Source: Labia minor
Lineage: Eukaryota; Arthropoda; Insecta; Dermaptera; Spongiphoridae
Length of the DNA stretch: 64,000 nt
Reading direction: 5' to 3'
Assembly: GCA_963082975.1 (NCBI GenBank)
Contig: OY720348.1
Coordinates: forward strand, 21,319,146-21,383,145
Shown: positions 24,321 through 48,770 of the stretch, one piece after another
How the letters are laid out: each line of letters opens with the position of its first letter
How positions within the stretch are numbered: the first letter of the stretch is position 1
Program-made: the position numbers and the translations under genes
The notes under the pieces: generated by a model
Told to the model about the DNA's origin: nothing
Databases searched by the model: none
Seen by the model: the letters and a program-made list of their open reading frames with translations, nothing else

Positions 24321-27300
24321 ATGAGTGGTAACACTCGAAAAGGACGCAAGTCCCCTGGAACTATGCGCAAAAATAAAGAAAAGCAATCAACTGCAGATAC
24401 TTCAGGTCAATTCCTTACAAAACCAGAAACTCTCTCTAATCAAGGTTCACAGGAAGATGGAATTGCATTAAGTGGTACTGATGAAGATGTTGTAAGTATT
24501 AAATAAACTTTTATAATATTCTGATAATATATATTTTTTAATACTAGATTAATTTAATATTTTTTTTTGTTAAAAGGAAATATTTCTACCTTCTTCATCC
24601 CACATTTCCAATGGATCCTCTGAACAAGTTATGTCAACTACAATCGATGAGATTGATGCTAATCACTCAGTACTCTCAGATGAAATTATTCGCACTAGAG
24701 CTGCTATTGAACATATGCAAACGAAAATTGGAAAAACAAAAGAACTTATTAAAGGAGAACAAACTACTCGAGATGGTAATATTAACATTTGTAACTTCAC
24801 ATTCATTTAGAATATTCACAATTCATTTCATTTTTTTGTATTATATTTGCATATAATTGTAATATTATTTACTTCCTGTACATTTCTCTTAGAATGCTAG
24901 TAAAAATTAGTTCTAAGATCTAAATCGATCTTATGTCATTTAGATGTCCCTTTGGATATTATTCAAATTGGTCTAAAGTGGAATCGAAAATGACAATTTT
25001 AATCATATTATACATATATATATATACATAGACATTCATCCAGCCATCCCTAACCTGAAACGCCTTCATCCTAATCCCATATATATATATCATATATATA
25101 TATATATATATATTGTTACTGTATTATATTTAAAATATAATGCTTGCTATTATATAGTTTTAAAATAAGTCTTTATTAAAATGACAATTGAAAACATTAA
25201 ATAACCCTACCATTTGTATTACATGGATGTGAGGAGTGGTTAATAAAATAAGATTTTAGAAAATATAATTATTTGTAATAATTGTGGTTTAAATATAGAA
25301 TGAAAACCCTAAAGACTGGCATAAGTTGCATGATTTCTATACTATTATTTTTAAAATTATAAAGCTTATTTTAGATAGTTTTTCGCTTGACAAACATAAG
25401 GAGCGATTGGGGGGAAACAAATTATTCAAACGACTATTCGATACACCTATAAAGAGAGTTTTTCTGATAACTAAAAAACCATAAATGTATTTATTAAAGC
25501 TTTTGTGGTTATTTTGATGATTATTAAGAGAATTTTTATTAAAAGACCACATTATTTGTATAAAATTATTTATTAAATTAAAATAATTGTACAACGTTTC
25601 AACTGCTTATTCTGCAGTCGTTTTCAAGTAACCGTACGCTTGCTCCGATTCAAGCGGACTGATGCATGTCGGGACACGTCACCTCTTATATAGGCAGTGA
25701 TATTGGCGCCAATTTTTGGCTCCAATTTTTACCGCCAATTCTTAATCTCAACATGAAGTCAGCAGCAATTGTCAAAGCAAGCGTTTACAATCAAGAAGTA
25801 TGATAGTGCATTATGTCTCTAAAATGAAGATACTAAATTATTTCCATAATCAAGATATATACACAAATACACATTAGATTAATTATATTTAATTTAATTT
25901 GACAAATTTTACTCATCCAACACTATGTTCCACATCTTATTAAGTCTATATCCATCCTCTTTGTTAATATTATTGGGATGATTATCAATTTCTATAGATT
26001 CTTTTATTTTTCTTTTCCACCAATTATTTTCAATATGAAGTGTTTCTACATTATCTAAATTTATTTTATGTCCTGTTGTTAAGGCATGTTCTGCAATTGC
26101 TGATTGATTTGGATGTTTCAATCTAATGGCTCTCTCATGTTCAGACAGTCTTGTAGAAATCTTTCTACTTGTTTCACCAATGTATACTTTTTTGCATTCA
26201 CAAGTTACCTTATAAACTCCATTATTTTCGTTTTTAATTTTGTCTTTTATATTTGAGGTGAGAGAAGACATTTGTTTATGAGGTTTATATGTTACTCTGA
26301 TGTTGTGTTTCCTCAATTTTGACGCTATTTTTTCTGTTGTTCCTTTTATATAAGGTAATGTTATTTGTGATCTGTATATTGGTTTTTCATTTTCATTTTT
26401 GATTTCTGTCTTTTTTGTTTTACTGAATTTCCTAATTTCATATTCCGAGAAGCCATTGTTTATGAAAGCTTCCTTCAATCGTTGTTTTTCTTTTTTAATG
26501 TTTTCATTTGAGCATATCTCTTCGGCTCTTTTGTGCAGTGTTTTTATCACTCCATATTTTTGTGATGGATGGTGGTGGGAATCTGCGTGGATATATCTGT
26601 TGGTGTGAGTTGTTTTCCTGAAAATATCAAACCTTAATCCATTCTGTTTCTTTTTAATTAATACATCAAGAAACGGTAACTCTTCATTTATTTCCCATTC
26701 AACGCTTAGTTTTATATTTTTATGTAAATTATTTGCTGCTTCTACAAATTTAACTAAAGAATCCTTACCATGAGGCCAGATGATATTTTGATGATTTGGC
26801 CTCATGGTAAGGATTCTTTAGTTAAATTTGTAGAAGCAGCAAATAATTTACATAAAAATATAAAACTAAGCGTTGAATGGGAAATAAATGAAGAGTTACC
26901 GTTTCTTGATGTATTAATTAAAAAGAAACAGAATGGATTAAGGTTTGATATTTTCAGGAAAACAACTCACACCAACAGATATATCCACGCAGATTCCCAC
27001 CACCATCCATCACAAAAATATGGAGTGATAAAAACACTGCACAAAAGAGCCGAAGAGATATGCTCAAATGAAAACATTAAAAAAGAAAAACAACGATTGA
27101 AGGAAGCTTTCATAAACAATGGCTTCTCGGAATATGAAATTAGGAAATTCAGTAAAACAAAAAAGACAGAAATCAAAAATGAAAATGAAAAACCAATATA
27201 CAGATCACAAATAACATTACCTTATATAAAAGGAACAACAGAAAAAATAGCGTCAAAATTGAGGAAACACAACATCAGAGTAACATATAAACCTCATAAA

Positions 27301-30300
27301 CAAATGTCTTCTCTCACCTCAAATATAAAAGACAAAATTAAAAACGAAAATAATGGAGTTTATAAGGTAACTTGTGAATGCAAAAAAGTATACATTGGTG
27401 AAACAAGTAGAAAGATTTCTACAAGACTGTCTGAACATGAGAGAGCCATTAGATTGAAACATCCAAATCAATCAGCAATTGCAGAACATGCCTTAACAAC
27501 AGGACATAAAATAAATTTAGATAATGTAGAAACACTTCATATTGAAAATAATTGGTGGAAAAGAAAAATAAAAGAATCTATAGAAATTGATAATCATCCC
27601 AATAATATTAACAAAGAGGATGGATATAGACTTAATAAGATGTGGAACATAGTGTTGGATGAGTAAAATTTGTCAAATTAAATTAAATATAATTAATCTA
27701 ATGTGTATTTGTGTATATATCTTGATTATGGAAATAATTTAGTATCTTCATTTTAGAGACATAATGCACTATCATACTTCTTGATTGTAAACGCTTGCTT
27801 TGACAATTGCTGCTGACTTCATGTTGAGATTAAGAATTGGCGGTAAAAATTGGAGCCAAAAATTGGCGCCAATATCACTGCCTATATAAGAGGTGACGTG
27901 TCCCGACATGCATCAGTCCGCTTGAATCGGAGCAAGCGTACGGTTACTTGAAAACGACTGCAGAATAAGCAGTTGAAACGTTGTACAATTATTTTAATTT
28001 AATAAATAATTTTATACAAATAATGTGGTCTTTTAATAAAAATTCTCTTAATAATCACTAAAAAACCAAACCAACATAATACTAGATTAATTAAGGAAAT
28101 GATAGAAAATCGAAATTAAACAGTGCTGGCGCAGATCGGGGTTGACAGTTACTAAAATCTATTGAATTGAGTAGCACTAAAAAGATAAATCTCTCTAACT
28201 AGGAAAAAATATATATATTTCTTTTTCTTAAAAAAACATTTTTCAATGCGAATTCAGCAAATTTAAATAAAAGAAAAAAGAAACACCATTCAGAAAAATA
28301 TTGTTATTTTTTTTTTCTTTTATTTTTAGACAATGTTAATGAGTATTTAAAATTAGCTGCCAATGCCGATAAACAACAACTCCAAAGAATTAAAGCTGTC
28401 TTTGAAAAGAAAAATCAAAAATCTGCTATTTCCATATCACAACTTCAGAAAAAATTAGAGAGTTATAATAAAAAACTTAGGGATCTTGAAACTCATGGCC
28501 TATCAAGTAGCCATCGGCAGCCCAGGGAAATGTTACGAGATATGGGCCAAGGTCTTAAGTAAGTAAACGCATATTTTTTGTTACTCTAAATAATAACAAA
28601 ATTATTTTTCTCTCGCGTATTATGATGATTGAATCTTGTTTTTCTTTTTAAATAAATAATAAAAAGATTTTAAGAAATATACATATTTTATTAAAAAATA
28701 TAATTAAAATATATTATCCCCAAATACTTAATTAGTTGGTAATTTTAAAGTTAGAATTAGTACTCTACATTCTGGATGTCGTTCTTTGCATCTGAAGAGG
28801 TGTGGAAGAAAAAGTCTTACCCTTTTATATTTTTTCAGAAATGTTGGAGGGAATATTCGCGATGGTATTACTGGATTATCTGGGTAAGCATTTAGGTCTC
28901 AGAAAAAAAATAGCAAAATAAATAAATTATTAGACGACACGTTTAAACATTGTTAAAGTATGAAAAGTGTTAAGTTAACCAGGCGGGAGGGAGACAAGTC
29001 CCTGTTCTCATATTATTTATTAAAGTATTTTTGATTTATATAAAATACAATGTTAAATATTTATATTGTAATTGTTTATACTAAAATTATTTCGATAAAA
29101 GTGATTTTAACTTTTTGTTTTGTTTTAATATTTAATAAATAAGACATACCGCTTCCTCTCTCTTTATATATATATTGATATGTAAATACACAAGCTGTTT
29201 ATTTATGCTTTTAGTAACTTTTAAATAAATTAAAATTACTGCAAAAATATATTTAATTTACATTTTTTTTTTATTTTATTTTAGAACTGTTATGTCAAAA
29301 CCAAGAGAATTCGCTCATTTAATTAAAAATAAATTCGGAAGTGCCGATAATATTAATACACTTTCAAGTAAGTTATTTAAATCATTTTATTTATTATAAT
29401 AATCAGTCGAATTAAATATAATTTATTCTAATTAAAATTCTTATTAATTAAACTTAAATTTTGAAAATCATTTTTCAATTAGTATTTAAAAAAGTAGTTC
29501 GTGTATATACGTTCAATATGAGTCAATTAAATTTAAAAATTATACTAAAAAAATATTAAAAGAATTGGAGTTTGAATTTAAAATGAGAAAAATATTTAGC
29601 TGGAAGGGGTTTGTTTCTACGTTTCGTTTTCTTCCAAATTTTATCAAATTTTAAGTAAAGTCAAATTTTTTGTTTTATTTTGGTTAAAACTAAATAAATC
29701 TATAATATTCACTCTAATCATTATTATATAATATATATAATATATTATATAATATAAAATACCCCTAAAGAAATTTAATTCAAAAACCAATATACACGAA
29801 TATTATAAAATAATACGATTATTATTATTAAATATATTTATTTTATATTATTATCAAGGAAAAAAAATTATCAAAATAGAATAATACTATTTATTTAAGA
29901 TAATATAATATAATTTAATATTATCTTTTATATTTTGAGATTTTATGATCATTATATATTATTACTTGATATTTTGAAAATTTAATTGTGTATTTATTCA
30001 ACTTTAAAGATTATTTTATTATAGGTAAATATATAAAAAGTATTGATTTATTATTATTATTTATTTTTATTTATTGATTTCTTTAAGGAAATGGTGAAAA
30101 TAGTTCGATAGATGAAGAGAAAACTCATCATGGCAGTGCTACATTGCCTGGAAATTGTAGCTTAGGTTCTACTCATGCTTCAGTTAGCGCTGGAGTTATC
30201 AAATTCCCTTCTGAGGATGGATCTGAATGCAGTTCTGTCACTAGTGAAAGCATTCCTCCTATCGGAAACACACCACATGACACTTCACCACGACATCAAA

Positions 30301-39900: not shown

Positions 39901-42900
39901 TTAAAATTATTTATAAATTTAAAATTTAATTTTAAATCATTTATTATTTGATGTTCAATTTTATTTTCATTGAATAATAAGAAAAATGTATATATATATA
40001 TATGCATATAATAAATAGAATTTAAAAAATTATTATTTTTTAAATTAATTATAATTTTTATATTAATATTTTTTTTTATAGATTAATTTACTTAGATTAT
40101 GGGTTAATGGGAACTTCTGAACAAAATATTAGAACTAAAAATAAACCTGCATACATGTGCCTTTTTTTGGATGATGAAGGTCGTCTTACTGAAATTCAAG
40201 TTCCTTTTCACTTGGCCCTTAATGATAAAAATAGTAAACATGCTAAGGACGCCCATTTGCTTAAAAAGTAAGATATGTTTTTATTATATATTAGAAATAA
40301 CAAACTAATTTATATTTACAGTATATTCATTTGATAAATTCAATTTTATATAATTTAAATGATTTAATTCATTTCATTTATTATAAAATAATATAATTTT
40401 ACAGACTTCGAAGATTATTACGTGAAGATTGTGATGAAGAAAAACAAATAGCATTAATTTCAAAAACTGGAAAAGAACTTGAAACCAATCAATTCCGATT
40501 TCAATATATTCAAACAATCACTGAAAGTCGTTATATAACTTTAGAGCCATTAAAGGCTGCTCTTGAAATATCAGAGCTTTGGAATCTTCATGGTACATTT
40601 TATATAAAGATTCTTTTTTTTTCTTTTCAAAATAACTATATATATTTTTATTATAATTTTTCAACAAAGAAACCGAAGATGTTGAAGGGAGAGTTCTATT
40701 TAATATGATTTCCAATTTAAATCAGTTAATTGAGTTCTATCATTTTGTAAAAATTCAAAATTCTCAACCACCAAATTATAATTCACTTATAGCATCGGAT
40801 GCCAACTCCGAACAGGTATTCATATTGATAAAAATACATTTTTTCATTTTAGTTAATACTTGTCATTATTATATATTTTAGAATTTGCACACACTTTTAA
40901 AAGTTTCTGAAAGGGAAGTATCAAGTTTAAAAGTTGTTTTATATACTTTAAGAGATTTATCCCTCTCAGACACATCAATACCAAATTTGGGTGATGAACA
41001 TTCCTCAAATAATATACAAAAAGGAAAAGTACATTTTACCGATGATGATAAATTAACGCTTTCTCAATTCCTCTCTGGTTTCATATTCAATGAACCTGGT
41101 TCTGGAATAACTTTGAAATCAGATCTCTCTGAAGATTTACTTAAGAAAATAGGTCTATTTTTTAAATTAGAAAACTTATTATTTAAAGAACATAATATAT
41201 ATAATATATTTTTATAATCATATTTTTAGGAGAATTTCTGTTTCAAGGAATTCTTTATTCTGATTGTTCAATCGAGGAATGGCAATCTGCTGCTATTAGT
41301 AGTGGACTACAATCTCTACATTTATTAAAACTCCTCTTTGTTTTCTGGTTATACAAAACAAATCCCAATCGTAAAATAGAACTTGAAATGACTCGGCTTC
41401 GTGAAATAATAAAAGGCATTTGTAGCATTACAGGTATTTTTATAAAATTAATTTTTGAATTATAACTATGTCATCTATTTAAATCTAATCAAGATATGCA
41501 AGAGCAAAATAGAAAAATAAAAAGAATATTAAAATGATTTAAACTTTTATGTTGACCAATAATCTTTCTTTCTTTACTTATATATTTTATAAGATGGTTA
41601 AATAATCTTTCTTTCTTTACTTATATATTTTATAAGATGGTTAAATATTCTTTCTTTAAATGTAAAATCATGAAAAAATAAACATATATTTAGTTTTATT
41701 CTAAAACAATTAATAATATTACCAATACAAACTTAAAATATATTCATGTTTATTTTATTTTATTATAATTAAATTATATTTTAGGTCTTGATCAAGTTTG
41801 TGCTCCATATAATGATATTTCACCTTTCTGGGATGAAATAAGAACACAACTTTGTAATTCAACTAATCCTCTTGGAGCTCTAACAGCTGTATTTGTATGC
41901 CGTTTAGTAAACCTTGAATATGAACGAATTTATGAACAAAGTGAACTTAATCAAGCACTTGCTGCTAGCCTTGAATCAACAGAAAGTGATCTTCTTTGCA
42001 ATAATAATGAAAATAATGAAAAAAAAGAATTGCCTTTAGAAAATGCTAACATAGGTGTGCTTTTACTTTTTTCTAATAAGAATATTTTGTAAAAATTCAT
42101 CCCATAGCAAAAACATTTCTAAATCTTTTATTTATTTTAGACGTTAAAAATAAATATTTAGAAAATTCTGTAGAAGGAGATACCATGCAAGTTTCAACTA
42201 CTTCAGAATGGGAAAAAGTTTCAAGGGATCTTTTTAAATGGAGTGAACTCATGGAACAATTAGAACGTTTAGCTATATTAGCAGCTGTTTTAAGCATTCC
42301 GCCTTTACCACTTTTGCCCAGAAATAAAAATCTCACTAGAAATTTGCATTTCTCATGTCAACCACAAAGATATTCTCCATTTAAAAAATCTTTAAAAGAT
42401 ATTCTTTCACAAGGAAAAGGTATATTAATTTCACATAATTTTTAATTAAGTTTTAACATTTTAATTTATATCCGTCATGGACATAGATAATTAGATATTA
42501 TTAATTTATAATAATTTATATACTCGTATATAGTAAAATATGGGAAGATAAGATATTTAATTTTGATGCTCTAATATCTAGGTTCAGTATCTGCATTGAT
42601 AGCAAAATGGCTTTCTGCTTCTGGAATTGATCCAATCCTATTAATTGATCCTAAAGAGTTAGAAGAAGAAAACCATGAATTTCACAGTGATGATGATACC
42701 CCGTCAAGACTAGAATCCAAACCACTTGAGGGAAAACCAGTCGAGATAGAATGTGCACGGGAACCTTCTTTTTTGGAAGATCAACATTCTAGAGTGATTG
42801 GTAAGGTTACTTTAAAGTCTATCAAATTAGATTAAATAATTAACTCAAAAAACAAAAACAAAATAATACTCTCACACACATACACATGTAGCTTATCTAC

Positions 42901-48287: not shown

Positions 48288-48770
48288 AATTAGCTGGAGT
48301 ATGTCCACTCGACTATCTCGCAATTTGAATTGGATTAAATAACATAATATATTATATTTAAATTAAATTTAATTAATTATAAATTATAAATTAAAATTAA
48401 TAAATAATATTTATTAAACCAGCGCACCACGTCACGTGTTGGCGCGTGAGATTTGCAGTGTTAAAAAATTAATTCTGGTACTTTCAGTGATTCAATCAAG
48501 CTGAAATTCTATATATAGCGGTTTTATACAATTTTTAATCATATGAAAAATTATCAAACATATATCTTTATTTTTACGTGCCTTGGTGCCTTCAACAAAG
48601 AGCCAAACATCCGCTGGTTTGATGGATTGATTGATTTTAATTTATAATTTAATTAATTAAATTTAATTTAAATATAATATATGTTATTTAATCCAATTCA
48701 AATTTAATTTTAAATTTAATTAATTAATTAAATTATAAATTAAAATCAATCAATCCATCAAACCAGCTTC
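48288..48770. repeat. family D repeat with long A/T inverted arms (copy D1)
   Basis: A left arm (about 48321-48424) and right arm (48612-48705) are inverted copies, beginning caatttgaattggattaaat and closing accagcg. The 190-base centre has a distinctive GC patch, accacgtcacgtgttggcgcgtgag. A further partial arm follows to 48768. A second copy starts at 49871. Noncoding; possible foldback element. Confidence 0.65.

Follow-up and report, generated by a model that had tools for sequence, protein, structure and literature searches.

Head-to-Head Penelope-Like Element Insertions in the Dermapteran Labia minor and a Probable Two-Sided Route of Integration

Structure of the Insertion

The window analyzed here is a 64,000-nt stretch of the genome assembly of the dermapteran Labia minor (GCA_963082975.1, contig OY720348.1, positions 21,319,146 to 21,383,145). 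In the assembly it contains a 2.6-kb inverted repeat formed by two arms of a Penelope-like element (PLE), each 1.28–1.30 kb long and placed head to head. BLAST alignment to a reference unit of the element, described below, identifies the left arm (25480..26778, minus strand) as an antisense, tailed, 5′-truncated copy of unit positions 2730-1432, and the right arm (26779..28055, plus strand) as a sense, tail-less, 5′-truncated copy of unit positions 1414-2690. The 3′ ends of both arms point outward, and both arms are truncated inside the reverse transcriptase (RT), at the YxDD motif. By the same alignment the inner joint (26778..26779) is blunt at the resolution of the reference, the left arm running to unit 1432 and the right arm starting from 1414. 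The pair is enclosed by an exact 12-nt direct repeat, actaaaaaacca, of which the copies at 25470-25481 and 28057-28068 form the left and right halves of a target-site duplication. The outer ends are unequal: a 3′ extension of about 40 nt (about 25480-25518, minus strand; unit about 2730-2692) is present at the left end only, its outer 2 nt overlapping the target-site duplication, and the right arm ends without it at unit about 2690.

A repeat search placed the arms at 25512-26784 and 26791-28063 and scored them as 100% complementary; by eye, pairing is continuous up to 26778/26797, and the central 18 nt (26779-26796) are present in the right arm only. None of 1,238 compared sites differs between the arms, in agreement with the original prediction, a note made from the sequence alone, which had described them as identical. 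Its reading of the structure as antiparallel copies of a Penelope-like element is upheld, and its proposal that the pair entered as one unit is supported by the single exact 12-nt duplication and by the one haplotype found in both arms.

The right arm holds the C-terminal part of the PLE open reading frame (ORF; 26779..27666, plus strand), from the DD of the RT YxDD motif through a GVY...YIG stretch (likened to GIY-YIG by eye only) to the stop codon, with the 5′ part missing; the ORF copy of this segment in the antisense arm lies at 25909..26778 (minus strand). Matches to Rfam microRNA families at the center of the window insertion were weak, fell below gathering scores, and correspond to the hairpin itself. 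RNA of the start-site region (27925-28063) folds no better than shuffled sequences (z -0.56).

Matches to the PF10267 profile of the TMCC family lie on the plus strand on both sides of the insertion: a probable upstream exon at 24697..24786 (profile 2-31; E 0.045, under the family cut-off but colinear) and a downstream exon match at 28329..28571 (profile 28-110; E 5.7e-32), which continues beyond the end of the exon and across one stop. Because of these flanking exon matches, the insertion very probably lies in an intron of a TMCC gene, and it is plausible, judging from the arms, that TMCC pre-mRNA would form a long double-stranded RNA. Elsewhere in the window, about 155 nt at 48613-48767 are self-complementary (87% identity to their own reverse complement) amid dispersed repeats at 44-63 kb, and a 43-nt tandem repeat of 2.3 copies occupies 41558-41657.

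The Element Family

A 29-nt word near the 3′ end of the element occurs at 1,442 sites of the 604-Mb assembly when at most one mismatch is allowed. Many of the loci that were read contain tandem units, from which a unit length of 2,729 nt was obtained; all unit coordinates refer to one natural monomer taken from locus L027. In that locus an open frame of 808 amino acids crosses the tandem junction, beginning in the preceding unit, and matches RVT_1 (E 4.4e-16); its matches in the PDB are RTs from 8e-7, telomerase RT appearing only at E 0.12-0.14. The family thus has a single ORF with a reverse transcriptase, pseudo-long terminal repeats (pLTRs) formed by tandem or partially tandem units, with the ORF start inside the pLTR, and an optional tail of 30-40 nt at a 3′ end, each of these a PLE trait. 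The GVY...YIG stretch near the end of the ORF resembles a GIY-YIG nuclease by eye; no Pfam GIY-YIG or PHROGs match was obtained, and the structure predicted by AlphaFold for the putative endonuclease region (mean predicted local distance difference test score 40) was too poor for a structure search. No hammerhead ribozyme was found by Rfam searches of window positions 24900-28700 (E threshold 1) and of positions 3000-7000 of L027 (E threshold 10), and a pattern scan was also negative. Such ribozymes occur in some other PLEs and do not define the group. We assign the insertion to a Penelope-like element that is probably active or was so recently.

Layout of Other Insertions

Besides the window insertion, 43 others were read: 27 without regard to layout and 16 chosen on contig C1. 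The 27 are the other insertions behind 46 listed matches (28 stretches, two of them from one array) and come from a search in which 40 of 1,178 candidates were scored, so that they represent the copies most similar to the query. The 16 chosen loci were picked for close opposed copies among the 100 motif places listed first, every one of which is on C1; loci L001-L008 duplicate others and were excluded.

The head-to-head arrangement was found in 24 of the 27 insertions taken irrespective of layout, and in 41 of 44 when the chosen loci and the window are added. The original prediction had called for a genome-wide look for other copies of this geometry, and the outcome is that the window insertion, although real, is typical of its family. 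Three copies (L009, L017, and L032) are 5′-truncated and lack an opposed second arm within the sequence retrieved; L009 yielded no target-site duplication, and L017 and L032 were read only in part, not to both ends. Inverted joins can be created by hairpin reads or misassembly, but an artefact of assembly or library preparation would account neither for the 12-nt target duplication that recurs beyond the second arm of the window insertion nor for a tail at one end only, and 40 further two-armed insertions each have their own center; we regard such an artefact as extremely improbable.

In an abundant family (1,442 motif sites) two separate insertions, the second beside or within the first, could also bring copies into opposition. 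The places of two words on contig C1 define 69 clusters, and neighbor pairs within 6 kb comprise 30 that face outward and none that face inward, a bias that speaks against independent events. One inward pair appears at an 8-kb limit (7.8 kb apart) and a second at 12 kb; these two widely spaced pairs are taken as separate insertions.

Outer Ends

Both outer ends were read in 29 of the 41 two-armed insertions (the window and all 16 chosen loci among them); the other 12 leave the fetched stretch. In all 29, one outer end is tailed and the other is tail-less. Tailed ends fall at unit 2720-2731 and tail-less ends at 2662-2700 (27 of 29 at 2687-2700), and the tail is on the left side in 13 of 29. 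A check by word places alone, on 24 head-to-head C1 clusters that are partly the same loci, gave exactly one tail in 21, neither in two, and both in one; it also placed tails on 14 of 14 internal units and on 15 of 36 one-site clusters. The cluster with an apparent tail at both outer ends, at about 39165698 on C1, is either a true exception or continues past the listed places. Across the whole genome the common 3′ word has 2,191 sites and the tail word 1,749; many tail words are not adjacent to a common word, and these totals were not used to tally tailed against tail-less ends.

An exact direct repeat of 11–17 nt surrounds the composite in 27 of 29 insertions, one of which (L049) is doubtful, its repeat sitting 12 nt off; repeats of at least 11 nt occurred in one of 396 pairs of mismatched flanks. 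L038 and L039 have no exact flanking repeat, although L038 shows by eye a 12-nt repeat with one mismatch. A repeat of at least 11 nt around both arms together in these 27 contradicts two separate insertions, because the duplication is single. With L038, L039, and L049 omitted, microhomology between target and element at the remaining 26 loci averages 2.8 nt for tailed ends and 3.4 nt for tail-less ends; random flank words give 0.5-0.6 nt, and the choice of repeat may inflate the two averages somewhat. In L020 the final tail bases match the target rather than the element, as expected if the target strand is the primer.

Thirteen of the chosen C1 loci (L037-L049) are short palindromes of two inverted pLTR pieces, 11 of them with an exact repeat of 12-17 nt (that of L049 doubtful), and they mimic miniature inverted-repeat transposable elements (MITEs) or foldback DNA transposons. 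Membership among DNA transposons or MITEs, whose terminal inverted repeats place one fixed outer sequence at both ends, was considered for the family and rejected: the outer ends differ by the tail in 29 of 29 insertions, and the arms encode part of an RT.

Centers and Arm Lengths

The 41 two-armed insertions have 41 distinct pairs of inner ends. Their inner joints are blunt in five, share at least 1 nt in 22, and contain inserts in 14; at least 4 nt are shared in eight of 41, against 2.5% expected. These joint coordinates come from BLAST runs with differing settings, and any one of them could be wrong by a few nucleotides. Short switched pieces lie at the centers of L034, L044, L046, and L047. 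The two arms can be very unequal, as in pairs of 65 and 2731 nt or 133 and 3276 nt.

Of 85 listed inner ends, 35 fall at unit 2430-2640, near a TATATAA at 2518 that may mark the 5′ end of the element RNA; the crowding is partly a matter of choice, because the 13 short C1 loci were picked as short. Another 14 of the 85 lie at unit 1380-1530 (window about 26680-26895, around the YxDD codons), to which the ranking of loci may contribute.

A single duplication and identical arms would also result if a palindromic source copy had transposed via a hairpin transcript. Against this, the 30-nt center of the window insertion occurs once in the genome assembly, at its own position, with up to one mismatch allowed, and no two of the 41 insertions have the same pair of inner ends. 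We consider this origin very improbable.

A Shared Source Haplotype

Ten variable sites common to several loci were used to compare haplotypes. Arm against arm, none of 171 comparisons in 40 loci was discordant, where arms paired between insertions give an expectation of 25%, and none of 5,000 permutations gave zero discordance. Counting all opposed segments, discordance was 0/378, and among tandem units within insertions it was 0/209. When every site is counted, 12 of 69,789 positions differ between opposed segments, whereas loci differ from one another at 1.9 per thousand. Private variants covered by both arms were present in both seven times and in one 14 times. The haplotype is shared within each insertion, and therefore the arms derive from one RNA source, be it through a single template molecule, through several RNAs transcribed from one locus, or through the copying of one arm from its partner. 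This agreement in 40 loci also argues against two separate insertions, which, taken with the outward bias and the enclosing repeats, we judge to be of negligible probability.

A Proposed Mechanism of Integration

We propose that the composites probably arise as single insertions, by two-sided target-primed reverse transcription followed by end-joining of the cDNAs. The element endonuclease would cut both strands of AT-rich DNA with a stagger of about 12-13 nt, which we infer from the duplication, so that the two resulting 3′ overhangs would be identical in sequence. Each overhang would then prime reverse transcription on element RNA from one source, whether one molecule or RNAs of one locus, one cDNA being initiated at the tail site (unit about 2720-2731) and its counterpart some 40 nt further upstream (unit about 2687-2700). 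The cDNAs would extend inward, halting at or before the 5′ end of the template, and their ends would be united through repair of the microhomology type; fill-in would leave one duplication enclosing two outward 3′ ends. A staggered cut with 3′ overhangs, primed inward on both sides, yields one duplication, outward 3′ ends, and arm lengths unrelated to each other. The prevalence of the head-to-head layout, the outward bias, the one-tail rule, the enclosing repeats, the microhomology at outer ends and inner joints, the inserts at the centers, and the common haplotype speak for this route, which also accords with in vitro results for an anole PLE (PMC11167929).

The arms could instead be made in sequence: one primed cDNA whose 3′ end snaps back, copies itself into the second arm, and joins the far side, with trimming of the loop giving the asymmetry. 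The original prediction had favored a foldback cDNA, a claim that the present data do not establish in view of the 18-nt surplus of the right arm and the left tail of about 40 nt in the window, and of the unequal arms and the tail/no-tail rule elsewhere. Since each window arm has a stretch that the other lacks, plain copying of one into the other does not account for the pair, and the 18 nt are absent from the tailed left arm. Self-copying also fits poorly with the tail-less arm reaching further inward in eight of 29 insertions (window included), would demand the loss of a loop of several kilobases where the arms measure 133 and 3276 nt, and does not by itself explain the fixed stop of the tail-less end at unit 2687-2700 in 27 of 29.

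Several observations nevertheless weigh against two-sided priming or in favor of foldback. Copies in one orientation only make up three of the 27 insertions taken irrespective of layout, and 39 of the 69 C1 clusters show a single orientation, in which a short second arm or none is possible. The shared haplotype, with opposed segments differing at only 12 of 69,789 sites, is predicted by foldback as well. In 20 of 29 insertions it is the tailed arm that extends further toward the center (in one the arms are equal), an outcome also expected if a foldback started from that arm. Near-symmetric centers (within 75 nt) are somewhat above chance: four of 24 against 1.7 expected (permutation p 0.07), five of 25 with the window added (p 0.03), and 12 of 20 against 7.5 among C1 loci (p 0.006), a set in which 16 of the 20 had been selected because their opposed copies lie close together. 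Where layout played no part in the selection, the excess is weak. The palindromic junctions of rotifer Penelope elements have been read as self-priming (PMC3846280). Finally, the start site of the Poseidon element PAc of Anolis carolinensis has no homology to the cut DNA (PMC11167929), where short microhomology is found here. On balance we consider self-copying unlikely and favor two-sided priming.

It is about an even chance, in our estimate, that integration is two-sided and asymmetric as a rule, carried out by a dimeric RT-endonuclease supplied with RNA from one source and with one subunit for each start site. If this heterotypic rule is true, the two start sites would be a pair with distinct roles rather than alternatives, and most insertions would be head-to-head composites. 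The insertions read here also show that short inverted pLTR pairs with duplications of 12-17 nt, which could be mistaken for MITEs, are products of retrotransposition.

Comparison with Known Systems

In LINE-1 twin priming, the second overhang primes on the element RNA, giving an inverted 5′ part within one duplication; this is a variant outcome, and the two parts come from different stretches of one RNA. The insertions described here are similar in the proposed priming by the second overhang and in the single duplication. They differ in that the arrangement is the common outcome and in that both arms span the same stretch from the 3′ end.

For the integration of Penelope-like elements, a 2013 account favors self-priming as the origin of Penelope palindromes (PMC3846280), and more recent biochemical work shows two-strand cutting with two starts (PMC11167929). 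Near-identical insertions with their ends, centers, and haplotypes help to discriminate between such models, and those read here favor two-sided priming from one RNA source. Head-to-head PLE copies are already known, and inverted pLTRs and 3′ extensions are among the recognized peculiarities of these elements (PMC8969392; see also PMC12910113). The one-tail count and the shared haplotype look new: a partial survey of the literature found no published statement of either, which does not prove its absence.

The closest parallel in layout is in the Penelope families of the rotifer Adineta vaga, which likewise have pLTRs, inverted head-to-head copies, and an ORF start in the pLTR; head to head is the arrangement seen most often there, with one duplication. 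Duplications of 8-10 bp around whole inserts and an optional 31-bp tail on one inverted pLTR in A. vaga are similar to what is found here. Unlike the few copies described in that account (PMC3846280), the L. minor family offers dozens of near-identical insertions, with a one-tail count, a common haplotype, and many unequal arms.

For PAc, cutting of both strands and extension were obtained in vitro, with two adjacent internal starts bounding the tail, and the later steps of integration were described in 2024 as yet to be validated (PMC11167929). The L. minor family resembles PAc in its tail between two RT start sites and in its tandem units; PAc cuts AT-rich DNA, and the targets here look AT-rich. 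PAc has a hammerhead ribozyme (PMC11167929), whereas none was found in the L. minor family in the searches described above. Beyond the PAc work, the insertions reported here add that both start sites are used, one on each side, in every one of the 29 whose outer ends were both reached.

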